Positions 7,560 through 14,093 of a stretch of DNA of 64,000 nt are shown here, piece by piece (position 1 is the stretch's first letter; each line of letters opens with the position of its first letter). A model generated the notes under the pieces. That model was not told the origin of the DNA, did no database searches, and saw only the letters and a list, made by a program, of their open reading frames with translations. The DNA is from Pseudomonadota bacterium (GTDB lineage: Bacteria > Pseudomonadota > Gammaproteobacteria > Burkholderiales > Thiobacillaceae), in contig JAKADC010000001.1 of the NCBI GenBank assembly GCA_021820845.1, positions 372,001-436,000 on the forward strand, in the 5' to 3' direction. The position numbers and the translations under genes were made by a program.

Positions 7560-8066
7560 TCAACGAATCGACTCGACGTCGATCGTCTTTTCCATCACCT
7601 TCGGCACGACCAGCGCATAGCCCTGCTGCTGCCAGTGCACCAGCTCGGTCATGGCGTTCGGCACGACTTCGACGAAGTCCTGGAAATCGTCGACCCGATA
7701 GCCGAAATCCGCCGCCGCCTGTCCACACACCTTGAATTTCACCCCGAGGCTGGCGTAATAGCGCATGCGGTCCACCGCGTCCTGGTATGTCGCCTCGTTC
7801 TTTTTCGCGACGGTCACGATCTCGTTGCCGTGGATCACGACGACGATGTGCAGGTCCTCGGGCGAATAATCGTAGGGAGATTCCAGCAAGGGGTTCATGA
7901 GCGAGCGCACCCAGTACAGCGCGCTGCCGATCTTTTGCGGATCGTCCAGGTAGAACTCGAACACGGCCTTGGCCGGGGCGTACGGCGTTGCCACCCATTT
8001 CCCGGCATGCGCGGGCGCCATCAGCCCTGCCGACAGCAGCATCAACACGGCCAGTGCAGCTTTCAT
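7560..8066 (-). CDS. Secreted DsrE-like protein
   Basis: The 168-residue product has a clear signal peptide (MKAALAVLMLLSAGLMAPAHA, cleavage about residue 21) followed by a DsrE-like domain. The hallmarks are strand IVVVIHGNEI near residue 74 and VKFKVCG with a single cysteine, Cys114. DsrE-fold proteins carry or sense sulfane sulfur in some systems; this periplasmic subtype has no fixed function. It starts 32 bases after rsgA on the same strand. Two more DsrE-like proteins are encoded nearby (10985-11440 and the end of 12127-12855), with cysteine at the equivalent place. Confidence 0.75.
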   Translation of the reverse strand: MKAALAVLMLLSAGLMAPAHAGKWVATPYAPAKAVFEFYLDDPQKIGSALYWVRSLMNPLLESPYDYSPEDLHIVVVIHGNEIVTVAKKNEATYQDAVDRMRYYASLGVKFKVCGQAAADFGYRVDDFQDFVEVVPNAMTELVHWQQQGYALVVPKVMEKTIDVESIR

Positions 8067-8098
8067 GACGCGCTCCCAGCAACTGCTCGAAGCCTGTT

Positions 8099-8971
8099 TT
8101 ATAGGCGTTGGGCAGCGTTTTGCTGAAGGCGGCGGAGGGTCTGGAAAAGCTGGAGGCGTGCCGGGTCGATCTCGCCGGCCGCTGCCGCCTCCCGCAGCCG
8201 GCAGCCTGGCTCGGCCTCGTGCCTGCAATCGCGGAAGCGGCATTGCCCGAGAAACGGACGGAACTCGACGAACGCCCGGGCCAGGGCGTCGGCATCGAGA
8301 TGCTGCAGGGCGAATTCCTGAAGACCCGGCGAGTCGATCACGGCCGAATCGGCGTCGAGCCGATACAGGCGGCTGTGCGTGGTGGTGTGGCGGCCGCTGT
8401 CGAGCGCCTCCGAATACTCGGCGGTGACCGCATCGGCGCCCGGAAAGAGCGCGTTGACGAGCGTCGACTTCCCCATTCCGGATTGCCCGATCAGGAGCGT
8501 CGTATGGCCGTGCAGGGCCGGCCGCAGCGGCGCGACGTCCCGCGTTGCCGACAGCGTGACGAGCGGATAGCCGAGGCGCGTGAGCAGGCCCAGGCGTTCG
8601 CGCGCGGCCGCAATCTCCGGCAGATCGGCCTTGTTGAGGATGAGCAGGCTGGCGATGCCCTGGTCTTCCGCGGCAAGGATGCAGCGCTGCACGAGTTCCA
8701 TCGAGAAGCTCGGGCGCGCGGCGACGACGACCGCCAGCTGTGTGACGTTGGCCGCGATGGCCTTGGATTTGAAAGCGTCGGAGCGATACAGCAAGCTGCT
8801 GCGGGTACACACGGCCTCGATGATCCCGTCGGCGCCGTCGCGCCTGACTTCGACGCGGTCGCCGCACACGACCTGCAGATGGCGGCCCTTGACCTGGCAG
8901 CGCAGGTCGCCCTCGGCAGTCGCGACGATGAAGCGGCGGCTGAAAGCGGCGACGACGCGGCCGGCCAGCAT
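8099..8971 (-). CDS. rsgA: Ribosome small-subunit-dependent GTPase A
   Basis: RsgA is a circularly permuted GTPase that checks 30S subunit maturation. The 290-residue protein shows an N-terminal OB domain (about 1-60). The permuted G motifs follow in order: G4 NKAD at 113-116, G1 GQSGMGKS at 162-169 and G3 DSPG at 213-216. A C-terminal zinc site uses Cys244, Cys249, His251 and Cys257. It starts two bases after the CZB gene stop and precedes the secreted DsrE gene, so the three are likely one minus-strand operon. Confidence 0.95.
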   Translation of the reverse strand: MLAGRVVAAFSRRFIVATAEGDLRCQVKGRHLQVVCGDRVEVRRDGADGIIEAVCTRSSLLYRSDAFKSKAIAANVTQLAVVVAARPSFSMELVQRCILAAEDQGIASLLILNKADLPEIAAARERLGLLTRLGYPLVTLSATRDVAPLRPALHGHTTLLIGQSGMGKSTLVNALFPGADAVTAEYSEALDSGRHTTTHSRLYRLDADSAVIDSPGLQEFALQHLDADALARAFVEFRPFLGQCRFRDCRHEAEPGCRLREAAAAGEIDPARLQLFQTLRRLQQNAAQRL

Positions 8972-10984: not shown

Positions 10985-11440
10985 TCAGGGCTTGATGTAG
11001 ACGTAGCCTTCCTTGGCCTCGAGGCGGGCAATTTCGGCGACGCCGGACGGAACGACCCGGGCTTCCATGATGACCGCGTCGGGCCCCAGGTTGCGCGACT
11101 TGAGCGTGTTGTTGCAGACGCGGAAATCGACGCCGCGATTCTTCAGCGCGGCGACCAGCGGCTCGTAGGCGCCCTTGTCGTCCTTGGCGTCGTTGAGCAG
11201 AAAATCGATGCCCTTGCCGTGGGCCACCACGACGATCTTGGCATCCGGACTGGCGTCGAGATGGTTCCTCACGTTGTTCAATGCCATGCGGGCGCGCGAG
11301 GAATCGTTGATGTGGTACACCACTTTTTCCTGATAGGGGGCCGTCGCCGACGCCGCGTCAGCGGCCTGCGCAGCGGCGTGGGCCATGGGAGCGGAAGCCA
11401 GCAGCAGGGCGGCGAGCAGCGGGGTGAGGGTGCGGGTCAT
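10985..11440 (-). CDS. Secreted DsrE-like protein, divergent from ECF sigma factor
   Basis: The 151-residue precursor has a signal peptide (residues 1 to about 25) and a DsrE-like domain. Recognisable parts are KVVYHINDSSRARMAL near residue 39, IVVVAHGKGIDFLL near 69 and VDFRVCNNTL with Cys109. The end, GYVYIKP, parallels the WTYIRV end of the nearby anti-sigma factor. It reads away from the sigma gene, from a promoter-like GGAATAA-N15-CGTC at 11491-11516 that matches the one before the sigma gene. GGAGAC precedes the start. It is probably a target of that sigma factor; the ligand is unknown. Confidence 0.8.
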   Translation of the reverse strand: MTRTLTPLLAALLLASAPMAHAAAQAADAASATAPYQEKVVYHINDSSRARMALNNVRNHLDASPDAKIVVVAHGKGIDFLLNDAKDDKGAYEPLVAALKNRGVDFRVCNNTLKSRNLGPDAVIMEARVVPSGVAEIARLEAKEGYVYIKP

Positions 11441-11490
11441 ACGAGTCTCCTGTTGATATTGGGTAACGGCCCGGGTAGGCCTGATGATAG

Positions 11491-11516
11491 GACGCGTCGA
11501 CTGGAACGCTTATTCC
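11491..11516 (-). promoter_or_regulatory. Candidate ECF-sigma promoter of the DsrE gene
   Basis: On the minus strand the sequence reads GGAATAA (11516-11510), 15 bases, then CGTC (11494-11491). This has the form of an ECF -35/-10 promoter. It gives a leader of about 45 bases before the start at 11440. The same pattern with the same spacer occurs on the plus strand 23 bases away. Confidence 0.65.
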
Positions 11517-11538
11517 ATTCCGGAAGCCGCTTTTTTCT

Positions 11539-11564
11539 GGAATAAACGGACTATCTTCCCCGTC
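11539..11564 (+). promoter_or_regulatory. Candidate ECF-sigma autoregulated promoter
   Basis: GGAATAA (11539-11545), a 15-base spacer and CGTC (11561-11564) match the divergent promoter exactly in both elements and spacing. The -10 ends only eight bases before the first possible start of the sigma gene, so the mRNA would have almost no leader. Confidence 0.65.
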
Positions 11565-11572
11565 ACCCGGAC

Positions 11573-12130
11573 ATGCTCATGCTCAACCGCCTCTTTTCTG
11601 GTCCTTCACGTCCCGGCATCGAGGCCCTGCGTCCGGTGCTCTATCGCATCGCGTATGCCTGGAGCCACGACGCCGCACTGGCCGACGATCTGGTGCAGGA
11701 GGCGCTTTCCAAGGGCTGGACACGGCGTGCGCAGTTGCGCGACGAGGCGGCACTGAAGGCATGGCTGGTGTCGATCATGAACCATTGCTGGCTCGATCAC
11801 CTGCGCAGCAGGCGCGACTTCGACGATGTGGAAGAGTGCCAGGACGAACTCGAATCCACGGGCGACACGCCGGAGGTGTGCTGTGACCGCGAACAGGTGA
11901 TCGCCTGCGTTCGCGAGGCCGTGGCGCGGCTGCCGCAGGGACAACGCCAGGTACTCACGCTGGTCGACCTCGAAGAGTTCAGCTACGCCGAGGTTGCCGA
12001 AATCCTGGAGATTCCGGTCGGCACCGTGATGAGTCGCCTGTCGCGCGCGCGCGCCTCGCTGAGAAACCTGCTCGGCGGCGCGTTGAAGAAGCACCCGGAG
12101 GAGCAGCCGTTGCTTAGGAGAATCAAATGA
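11573..12130 (+). CDS. ECF-type RNA polymerase sigma factor
   Basis: The 185-residue protein has sigma region 2 (about residues 15-85, with IAYAWSHDAALADDLVQEAL and LVSIMNHCWLDHLR) and region 4 (about 120-175, with LPQGQRQVLTLVDLEEFSYAEVAEILEIPVGTV), but no region 3, as in ECF sigma factors. The next gene starts inside its stop (ATGA overlap) and codes a membrane anti-sigma factor. ATGs at 11573 and 11579 are both possible; the first is used. Its own promoter-like element and that of the divergent DsrE gene suggest autoregulation and a small regulon. Confidence 0.9.
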   Translation: MLMLNRLFSGPSRPGIEALRPVLYRIAYAWSHDAALADDLVQEALSKGWTRRAQLRDEAALKAWLVSIMNHCWLDHLRSRRDFDDVEECQDELESTGDTPEVCCDREQVIACVREAVARLPQGQRQVLTLVDLEEFSYAEVAEILEIPVGTVMSRLSRARASLRNLLGGALKKHPEEQPLLRRIK

Positions 12131-12855
12131 AACCCGACATTTCGGACGAACTTCTGCATGCGTTCATCGATGGCGAACTCGACGTGGCCGAGAGCGAAAA
12201 GCTGCTCGCGCGCATGCAGGACGACGAGCTGCTGGCGCAGCGCGTCTGCGCGTTGCGCAGTCTGCGCAGCATGGTACGGCTGGCGTATGCGGAGCCGCCG
12301 CGCGTCGAACCGAAGATGCCCCTCGTCCGCCGCCGGCAGCTGGTTCAACGTTGCGCCTTTGGCTGTCTGATTCTGCTCGCGGGCCTGAGCAGCGGCTGGG
12401 CGCTGCGTGGACTCGGTGGGCACACGGCCGCCCTTCAGCCGGCCGTGTCCGCGGACGGTTATCGGACGGTCAGCCTGGTGCGCGAAGCCGATCCCGATCG
12501 CGTCATGCTGCACATCGACAGCGCCGCGCCGGACAAGATGCAGGCTGCGCTGGATCAGGCCGATCGGCTGTTGGACCGTGCTGCGCAGCAGGGGCGCCCG
12601 ATGCAGCTCGAGATCATCGCGAACAGCGGCGGAATCGAAATGCTGCGCGCGGGCAACAATCCCTTCGCGGAACGCATCGCACGCATGCAGCGGCATCACG
12701 CGAACGTGTATTGGGTGGCGTGCGGGCAGTCCCTCGAGCGTTTTGCCAGCGAGGGGAAACCGGTGACGCTGCTGCCGGCGACGCGGACCGCGCCGACGGC
12801 GATCGGCGAGATCGTCACGCGGCTCCAGCAGGGCTGGACCTACATTCGGGTCTGA
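12127..12855 (+). CDS. Membrane anti-sigma factor with DsrE-like periplasmic domain
   Basis: The 242-residue protein starts like an anti-sigma domain (SDELLHAFIDGELDVAESEKL, residues 6-26). It lacks the HxxxCxxC zinc motif. A basic stretch and one membrane helix follow at about residues 76-95. The outer part (about 122-242) resembles DsrE: VMLHIDSAAPDKMQAAL, LEIIANSGGIEML, VYWVACGQSLER with Cys199, and final WTYIRV. These align in order with the divergent secreted DsrE protein. The simplest model is that the periplasmic domain senses a sulfur or thiol signal and releases the sigma factor; this is inference. Confidence 0.75.
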   Translation: MKPDISDELLHAFIDGELDVAESEKLLARMQDDELLAQRVCALRSLRSMVRLAYAEPPRVEPKMPLVRRRQLVQRCAFGCLILLAGLSSGWALRGLGGHTAALQPAVSADGYRTVSLVREADPDRVMLHIDSAAPDKMQAALDQADRLLDRAAQQGRPMQLEIIANSGGIEMLRAGNNPFAERIARMQRHHANVYWVACGQSLERFASEGKPVTLLPATRTAPTAIGEIVTRLQQGWTYIRV

Positions 12856-12908: not shown

Positions 12909-14093
12909 TTAATTTGCTTCGGGCGCCTCCAACGGCTCCACGCTGCGCTGGACCGGACGCCGCCCGACACGGATCTTCAGGTCCATCGACTGCTGCTTGC
13001 GCGCCACGGTGAGCCGTGCTTCTTCGCCCGGCTTGAGTGCCGCGATCAGATTGAGCAGCGATGCGGAGTCGGCCACCGCGCGGCCGTTGACCGCGAGCAG
13101 GACGTCGCCCGGGCGCACGCCGCCCGCATCGGCCGGGCCGCCTTTCAGCACGCCGGCGATCAGCGCGCCTTCCGCATTCTTCAGATTGAACGATTTCGCC
13201 AGATCGGGACTCAGGTCCTGCACCTCGACTCCGACCCAGCCGCGCGTCACGCTGCCCGTCTTGACGATCTGCTCCATCACCTTGCGGGCGATGCTGACCG
13301 GGATGGCGAAGCCGATGCCCTGCGAACCGCCGGTTCGCGAATAGATCGCGCTGTTGATGCCGACCAGATTGCCGGCCGCGTCGACGAGGGCGCCGCCCGA
13401 GTTGCCGGGGTTGATGGCGGCGTCGGTCTGAATGAAGTTCTCGAACGTGTTGATCCCGAGGTGGGTCCGCCCCAGCGCGCTGACGATCCCCGCGGTGACG
13501 GTCTGGCCGACGCCGAACGGATTGCCGACCGCCAGGACCCAGTCGCCCACCTTGAGGCTGTCCGGCTCGGCGAACGTGATCGCAGGCAGGTTGGAGACAT
13601 CGATTTTCACGACCGCCAGATCGGTTTCCGGATCGGAGCCGACCACCCGGGCGGGCACCGTCTTGCCATTGGCCAGGGCGACCTGGATTTCGTCGGCGGC
13701 CTCGACCACGTGCTGGTTGGTGAGAATGTAGCCGTTGGGGCTGATGATCACGCCGGAGCCCAGGTTCGATACCTCGCGCGGCCGGGTATCGAGCTGGTCG
13801 CCGAAGAAATATCGGAAGATCGGATCGCGCAGCGCCGGATGAGCCGGACTGTTGACCTTCTGTTGCGTGAATACGTTAACCACCGACGGAATGACTTTTT
13901 GTGCCGCCGGCGCGAACGATTCGAGGGGCACGGGCGTGCGGCCCGGCGCTTGCGCGGCCTGTCGTATGGTGAGACTCGGCGCGGATGTCGGCCAGTGGAG
14001 GAAGTCGGGCTTGAACAGCGCGATGATGAACAAGACCCCGAGCGCCACGGTGACGGACTGGGCGAACAGCAACCAGAGTTTTCGCATATGCAT
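12909..14093 (-). CDS. HtrA/DegQ-type serine protease, inner-membrane anchored, one PDZ
   Basis: The 394-residue protein has an N-terminal membrane anchor (about residues 10-27). A trypsin-like domain follows with the triad His128 (TNQHVV), Asp158 (ETDLAVVK) and Ser232 (NPGNSGGAL), then one PDZ domain (about 285-375). One anchor and one PDZ is the DegS-like layout, while the sequence resembles the AlgW/MucD group. It is divergent from petABC, a known betaproteobacterial arrangement. ATGs at 14093 and 14087 are both possible. A TATAAT-like -10 on the minus strand lies at 14142-14137. Likely role is periplasmic quality control. Confidence 0.92.
   Translation of the reverse strand: MHMRKLWLLFAQSVTVALGVLFIIALFKPDFLHWPTSAPSLTIRQAAQAPGRTPVPLESFAPAAQKVIPSVVNVFTQQKVNSPAHPALRDPIFRYFFGDQLDTRPREVSNLGSGVIISPNGYILTNQHVVEAADEIQVALANGKTVPARVVGSDPETDLAVVKIDVSNLPAITFAEPDSLKVGDWVLAVGNPFGVGQTVTAGIVSALGRTHLGINTFENFIQTDAAINPGNSGGALVDAAGNLVGINSAIYSRTGGSQGIGFAIPVSIARKVMEQIVKTGSVTRGWVGVEVQDLSPDLAKSFNLKNAEGALIAGVLKGGPADAGGVRPGDVLLAVNGRAVADSASLLNLIAALKPGEEARLTVARKQQSMDLKIRVGRRPVQRSVEPLEAPEAN

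Follow-up and report, generated by a model that had tools for sequence, protein, structure and literature searches.

Among the extracytoplasmic function (ECF) sigma factors, group ECF26 offers the closest known counterparts of the system considered here, a sigma/anti-sigma gene pair and a divergent DsrE-like gene located in a stretch of 64,000 nucleotides (hereafter the window) from a member of the Thiobacillaceae (GenBank assembly GCA_021820845.1, contig JAKADC010000001.1, positions 372,001 to 436,000, forward strand). ECF26 factors (RpoE1 and RpoE4 of Sinorhizobium meliloti, SigE of Starkeya novella) use promoters with -35 GGAAT and -10 CGTC elements and are accompanied by a downstream membrane anti-sigma gene (PMC3511301, PMC6527743, PMC6180224). 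Their regulons are small and linked to inorganic sulfur oxidation, RpoE1 and RpoE4 are autoregulated, and sulfite oxidation is under their control (PMC6527743, PMC3511301). Those of S. meliloti respond to thiosulfate and to taurine (PMC3511301). Work that connects such sigma factors with sulfite and thiosulfate describes their mode of activation as hypothetical (PMC6180224). The window locus shares the promoter type, a downstream gene for a predicted membrane anti-sigma factor, the small regulon and the sulfur oxidation link. It differs in its targets, since genes for DsrE proteins and for an anion porin stand where RpoE4 has, as its strongest known target, the sulfite oxidase operon sorT, and in its anti-sigma factor, the presumed periplasmic half of which is, at the level of sequence, homologous to a gene under its control. 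EcfR6 (pSymA, S. meliloti), the sole ECF26 anti-sigma factor compared, matches in the N-terminal part only and has no detectable DsrE domain.

The DsrE/DsrF-like proteins provide the second comparison. DsrEFH and DsrE3A are sulfur-trafficking proteins located in the cytoplasm, and in the DsrEFH sulfurtransferase complex DsrE is joined by the partners DsrF and DsrH. Here, by contrast, one copy appears to be secreted and another forms a single protein with a membrane anti-sigma domain. The fold is that of MTH1491 (1l1s), ST0148 (2pd2), DsrE3A (3mc3), YchN (1jx7) and DsrEFH (2hy5) as judged by Foldseek, and the first two also show sequence likeness to, and an aligned cysteine with, the window proteins. 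A cysteine of DsrE3A is converted by tetrathionate to Cys-S-thiosulfonate, with no reaction with sulfide, persulfide, polysulfide, thiosulfate or sulfite; DsrE2B reacts with none, and DsrE3A forms a homotrimer that binds the partner protein TusA (PMC4175335).

RseA and MucA have the layout predicted here (an anti-sigma domain in the cytoplasm, a single membrane-spanning helix and a domain in the periplasm), but the periplasmic part is DsrE-like in the present protein and the N-terminal similarity is not significant alone (residues 3-47; E 0.22 with 6in7, 0.27 with 8z6g). ECF sigma-2 of Arcobacter butzleri activates sox genes and is comparable, by description only, as an ECF pair touching sox expression; no DsrE domain is mentioned in the available excerpts (PMC3445524). 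No printed description of a DsrE-domain anti-sigma factor, of a DsrE/porin target pairing or of near-restriction to soxB genomes was found in open-licence PubMed Central (PMC) papers: the words DsrE and ECF26 are absent from two ECF papers (PMC7406223, PMC8103513), and the available excerpts of a Riftia symbiont paper naming a porin, DsrE and a sigma factor contain nothing on the present system (PMC7787665). An initial annotation of the locus, made from its sequence, had not recognized the combination as a described switch. The promoter motif is the published ECF26 consensus and not new to science; the novelty appears to lie in an anti-sigma factor that has a DsrE domain and whose targets are DsrE genes and an anion porin gene.

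The positions of the open reading frames (ORFs), the intergenic gap and the two promoter elements are exactly as first annotated:

10985 to 11440, minus strand: gene of the presumed secreted DsrE-like protein, 151 residues, target 1 (ORF; Pfam DsrE)
11441 to 11572: divergent intergenic region of 132 bases, with both promoters inside (from the ORF ends)
11491 to 11516, minus strand: GGAATAA-N15-CGTC promoter-like element towards the DsrE gene (motif search, family-set conservation)
11539 to 11564, plus strand: GGAATAA-N15-CGTC promoter-like element towards the sigma gene (motif search, family-set conservation)
11573 to 12130, plus strand: ECF sigma factor gene, 185 residues (Sigma70_r2, E 5.9e-14; Sigma70_r4_2, E 3.8e-19)
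12127 to 12855, plus strand: membrane anti-sigma factor gene, 242 residues, with its first 4 bases shared with the sigma gene (ORF; sigma gene upstream)
12127 to 12297, plus strand: presumed cytoplasmic anti-sigma domain, residues about 1-57 (weak similarity to known anti-sigma domains)
12331 to 12405, plus strand: presumed transmembrane helix, residues 69-93 (low-confidence model helix; hydrophobicity peak at 75-93, mean 1.5)
12487 to 12852, plus strand: DsrE-fold domain, the putative sensor, residues about 121-242, with the Cys199 codon at 12721-12723 (profiles, fold, cysteine)

The Anti-Sigma Factor and Its DsrE-Like Domain

The C-terminal domain of the anti-sigma factor is DsrE/DsrF-like by homology, fold and cysteine, a trait missing from the initial annotation, whose other protein calls are borne out by Pfam (sigma regions; DsrE in the secreted protein). 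A DsrE profile matches 54/54 anti-sigma proteins at E<=1e-3 (a number that includes a duplicate from the same genome, a fragment of 105 residues and two gammaproteobacterial loci) and, at that level, none of the sigma factors or shuffled controls. Profile-profile comparison of the C-terminal half with DsrE yields 99% probability, against 0.2% for a sigma-family control. As a single-sequence query the window protein matches, through residues 125-241, the neighboring DsrE genes of its relatives (E 1e-7 to 3e-5), and a profile of 20 anti-sigma proteins retrieves the DsrE-like structures 1l1s (E 2.2e-15) and 2pd2 (E 4e-7), which are matched by the sequence of the secreted DsrE protein too. The same two entries are the best Protein Data Bank matches shared by both proteins in Foldseek. 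In AlphaFold models (from 10 and 11 sequences) the domain is mostly confident, with block means of 73-93 from residue 121, and the order of elements is the same as in the secreted protein.

The two protein groups are further connected by a cysteine. Cys199 is present in 109/109 anti-sigma proteins (L040, with its gene in two frames, stands outside the count) and aligns with the cysteine of the secreted DsrE proteins, which is Cys109 in the window (codon 11114-11116) and is kept in 101/102 of them. Pfam DsrE stays below threshold in the window anti-sigma protein and is found in 6/20 relatives at E<=0.1 (best 6.7e-6), so that such proteins may easily be labeled anti-sigma or hypothetical. The secreted protein itself is a clear DsrE/DsrF-like member (Pfam DsrE, E 3.1e-12, 47.1 bits, cut-off 22.7); its secretion is predicted from a hydrophobic, signal-like N-terminal stretch, as judged by hydrophobicity only. 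NCBIfam gives neither protein a match above cut-off.

ZAS anti-sigma factors are marked by an HxxxCxxC zinc motif. Reading of the sequence shows this motif to be absent from the window anti-sigma protein, where a single cytoplasmic cysteine, Cys41 (88/109 anti-sigma proteins), stands without it. A weak Pfam zf-HC2 match points the other way (E 0.034 in the window protein; 12/20 members at E<=0.1, best 7.4e-4). Residues 1-62 resemble S. meliloti EcfR6 (35% identity, E 7.6e-7). The named relatives of the protein belong to Thiobacillus metagenome-assembled genomes (69% and 51% identity) and to a Hydrogenophilales one, the others being labeled Proteobacteria only, so that the source is probably Thiobacillus or a near relative.

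The sigma factor consists of sigma-70 regions 2 and 4 alone (Pfam Sigma70_r2, residues 16-81; Sigma70_r4_2, residues 111-163), as ECF factors do; NCBIfam names general sigma families only. It is 36% identical to RpoE6 over 154 residues (E 6e-26), and the upstream elements carry the ECF26 -35 GGAAT and -10 CGTC. Sigma factor and promoter fit a known, ECF26-like kind, membership of the sigma sequence in the ECF26 clade being a candidate assignment. A downstream gene for a COG5662-type membrane anti-sigma factor is a further mark of the ECF26 group; in the window an anti-sigma gene lies downstream, with the N-terminal likeness to EcfR6 given above. The sigma gene lies directly 5' of all 110 anti-sigma/DsrE fusion genes examined (51 family, 59 class).

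Conserved Promoters and the Genes Behind Them

Conservation was followed in two sets of loci. The family set of 51 comprises the window, 45 more family genomes with a full-length match (46 of 61 searched) and five named loci; L037 (on one contig with L052), L041 and L042 (on one contig each with L144 and L145, respectively) were dropped from it and are still inside the 54-protein profile test and the start-distance and background sets below. The class set comprises 60 loci chosen among the class matches, 57 of them with the fusion; eight further fusion genomes lie outside it. In both sets the strict motif is GGAATA-N15..17-CGTC at most 400 bases upstream.

The window contains exactly two copies of GGAATAA-N15-CGTC. 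Dinucleotide-shuffled windows have a mean of 0.01 matches, and two are reached in 0/100 shuffles. The autoregulated divergon that had been proposed finds strong support in the relatives, in which the motif precedes 49/51 sigma genes and 44/44 divergent DsrE genes of the family set, with no reversed motif at the same positions and one match in 2841 random stretches of these loci away from the genes. A chance origin of the motif pair is ruled out by shuffles, reversed control, background stretches and family conservation together.

The genome (2.85 Mb) holds four exact matches and none of the reversed motif, and these stand before the sigma gene, the window DsrE gene (DsrE1), a second secreted DsrE gene (DsrE2; L088, 4523-4960; 53 bases before the start codon) and a Porin_O_P (PF07396) gene for an OprO/P-type anion porin (L089, 3957-5294; 120 bases). 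The initial annotation had envisaged one extra target. There is such a target, but it is not the only one, as DsrE2 and the porin have the same promoter. The DsrE2 motif is kept in 8/10 same-genus copies of at least 57% identity, its own genome counted. With the relaxed motif GGAATA-N15..18-CGTC the genome has 28 matches (reversed control 3), four of which are the exact elements before matching genes. Of the remaining 24, 22 fall inside an ORF longer than 700 bases on either strand, the exceptions being L095 (471 bases) and L107 (198 bases); the criterion is rough, the true DsrE2 site also lying inside a long opposite-strand ORF. One relaxed match (L099, spacer 17) is followed 27 bases downstream by an ORF of 217 residues that looks methyltransferase-like by eye.

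Next to the sigma/anti-sigma pair a DsrE gene is found in 82/108 loci. The porin family, detected in at least 36/108, is the commonest recurrent neighbor in gene clustering and stands behind a DsrE gene in 34/38 porin loci (duplicates included); outside this count, G056 has an 83% identical porin about 100 bases behind DsrE. Where the porin faces the sigma gene with no DsrE-like gene between (L156, L170, L193), it has its own motif in 3/3. No motif was found before porin starts in other family genomes, which is no test, as many starts were placed on wrong or truncated ORFs, and no porin match was obtained in a plasmid collection. In two loci (L169, L175) the DsrE place of the divergon, behind the same promoter element, is taken by a gene for a SoxB-related phosphatase of 710-724 residues, with SoxB as the best NCBIfam model (E 1e-51 to 1e-53), far below its cut-off. 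As a practical outcome, many uncultured sulfur oxidizers can readily be searched with the promoter motif for candidate genes of a sulfur response.

The start codon of the window sigma gene (11573) lies 8 bases past the -10 element, and a later Met is found at 11579. In same-genus loci aligned from residue 1 (L043-L051, L053) the distance from GGAATA to the aligned start is 34-36 bases. The sigma message in this genus may be leaderless, or may begin at the later Met.

Association with Sox Sulfur Oxidation

In a class sample of 369 genomes, soxB (positive at E<=1e-130) is present in 65/66 genomes with the fusion, among the matches listed, and in 84/303 others (odds ratio 169). The 66 are a lower bound (at least 66 among the matches listed, with at most seven candidates scored per genome), three partial matches (G150, G319, G324) were counted as fusion-negative, and the 149 soxB genomes are those read by hand, an automatic count giving 148 (the difference being G159). 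By family the figures are 40/41 with the fusion and 38/142 without, again among the matches listed, 183 families being the highest family label among those listed. In this sample the switch is thus near-restricted to genomes with soxB, one of the genes of thiosulfate oxidation. As a control, NapA is found in 22/66 fusion genomes and 46/303 others (odds ratio 2.8, p 0.0013), an association that is lost within soxB genomes (22/65 vs. 21/84, p 0.28). The three family fusion genomes without a soxB match (G035, G037, G057) are 84, 71 and 96% complete.

Direct linkage is seen in L263, where sigma, anti-sigma, soxX, soxY, soxZ, soxA and soxB follow in this order on one strand, the sox genes being named by curated models. 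In L264, soxX, soxZ and soxA are followed on the same strand by soxB and, 12 bases further on, by a DsrE-like gene, recognized by the DsrE profile (E 2e-20) and matched by neither Pfam nor NCBIfam. Of the sulfur- or thiol-stress switch put forward initially, the sulfur part is supported by the class-level association and the sox-operon linkage, whereas thiol stress finds support in nothing that was tested.

Proposed Mechanism and Alternatives

On balance we consider it probable that the locus encodes an autoregulated ECF switch of Sox-type sulfur oxidizers that senses a sulfur intermediate through a sulfur-carrier-like domain, acts via Cys199 and includes feedback. At rest, the cytoplasmic N-terminal domain would keep the sigma factor at the membrane, and the periplasmic DsrE-fold domain with its one invariant cysteine would be the sensing part. 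A periplasmic intermediate of sulfur oxidation (for example tetrathionate, sulfane sulfur, thiosulfate or sulfite) would modify Cys199 or bind beside it, and the domain would shift its shape or partner and free the sigma factor. Through the GGAATAA-N15-CGTC promoters, free sigma would then switch on the operon that encodes it, together with the genes for the OprO/P-type porin and for one or more secreted DsrE proteins. The signal would be damped as the free DsrE proteins handle the sulfur species in question. Sulfur intermediates are proposed to act at Cys199 because some characterized DsrE relatives carry sulfur on a cysteine and S. meliloti ECF26 answers thiosulfate and taurine. Such a switch points to a way in which these bacteria may perceive the sulfur that sustains them, and a recognizable sulfur-carrier fold with one invariant cysteine as sensor would make the signal directly testable.

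More tentative is a covalent version, a possibility on which we would not insist, in which Cys199 takes a thiosulfonate or persulfide from Sox intermediates and thereby releases sigma, the induced DsrE proteins, as soluble counterparts of the sensor, remove the sulfur group or compete for it and reset the switch, and the porin brings in more thiosulfate. If so, the sensor would govern how much is made of acceptor proteins that are related to itself.

Several observations weigh against the sulfur-sensing switch. Externally added sulfite is no inducer of the S. meliloti ECF26 system (PMC3511301), and BLASTP of the window DsrE protein against the window anti-sigma protein gives no significant match. 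In the class set the strict motif precedes only 39/59 sigma genes and 14/27 divergent DsrE genes, and across all DsrE2 matches, many of them distant paralogues, it is found in 12/28. The pair has no DsrE gene beside it in 7/51 family and 19/57 class loci. More than half of the soxB genomes of the class sample (84/149) do without the fusion, and no association exists within the family (soxB in 43/46 fusion genomes and 13/15 others), which is explained by soxB being near-universal there. Shared ancestry is corrected for by the family-level count only, and the p-values should not be read literally, because related genomes are not independent.

RseB acts together with RseA, and the free DsrE protein could likewise be the sensor rather than an output, forming a mixed oligomer with the homologous anti-sigma domain and letting go of it, or clamping onto it, according to its sulfur load. 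We hold this to be rather unlikely, although the domain and the free protein are homologous, a DsrE gene accompanies the pair in most loci, and the class set includes 13 DsrE genes that follow the anti-sigma gene on its strand. The motif stands before 1/13 of these, as expected if they are co-transcribed with the anti-sigma gene. The DsrE3A homotrimer and its binding of TusA (PMC4175335) also make mixed oligomers plausible. However, the loci that keep the pair with no nearby DsrE speak against such a role, unless a DsrE elsewhere in the genome serves, and the invariant cysteine kept by the anti-sigma domain itself would be superfluous if that domain served for docking alone.

A trypsin-PDZ (DegQ-type) protease gene (12909-14093, minus strand) ends convergently just behind the anti-sigma gene, and its product could be a candidate for cleavage of the anti-sigma factor. 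Together with the non-significant resemblance of the N-terminal domain to RseA and MucA, it lends some color to a switch that answers general envelope or thiol stress through anti-sigma proteolysis, the DsrE domain being a ligand-binding or structural cap only. This is improbable in view of the fully conserved Cys199, the soxB association and the nature of the motif genes, which encode DsrE proteins, a porin and, in two loci, the SoxB-related phosphatase, and no folding factors. An anion-starvation switch, in which the porin would import a scarce oxyanion (phosphate or sulfate) with the DsrE proteins as accessories, draws on Porin_O_P being a repeated regulon member, but it is very improbable, since phosphate need is universal whereas 65/66 carriers (among the matches listed in the class sample) have soxB, and DsrE lies beside the pair more often than the porin is detected.

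Related and Neighboring Genes

Full-length anti-sigma matches occur in 3/299 genomes of a phylum-wide sample (E<=1e-25). Five more genomes match from residue 61 or later only, and the three of these that were fetched have no adjoining sigma gene; two Rhizobium plasmid matches likewise cover the DsrE part, with no sigma gene within 3 kb flanks. L256-L260 hold DsrE proteins with no adjoining sigma gene, in which the match to the anti-sigma profile begins at residue ~92-115, and in L257, from Rhizobium, the next gene is annotated as encoding a TlpA-family protein. A PADLOC search found nothing. A third secreted DsrE-like gene lies in the window beside rsgA (7560-8150, minus strand; Pfam DsrE, E 1.5e-15), with no GGAATA/CGTC element upstream. 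Some loci of the same genus (L043, L044, L050-L052) have additional DsrE genes at a distance of 2.5-4 kb from the divergon. Finally, two consecutive sigma/anti-sigma(DsrE) pairs stand in tandem between two DsrE genes and a porin gene in L041/L144 and L042/L145, as a duplicated switch.

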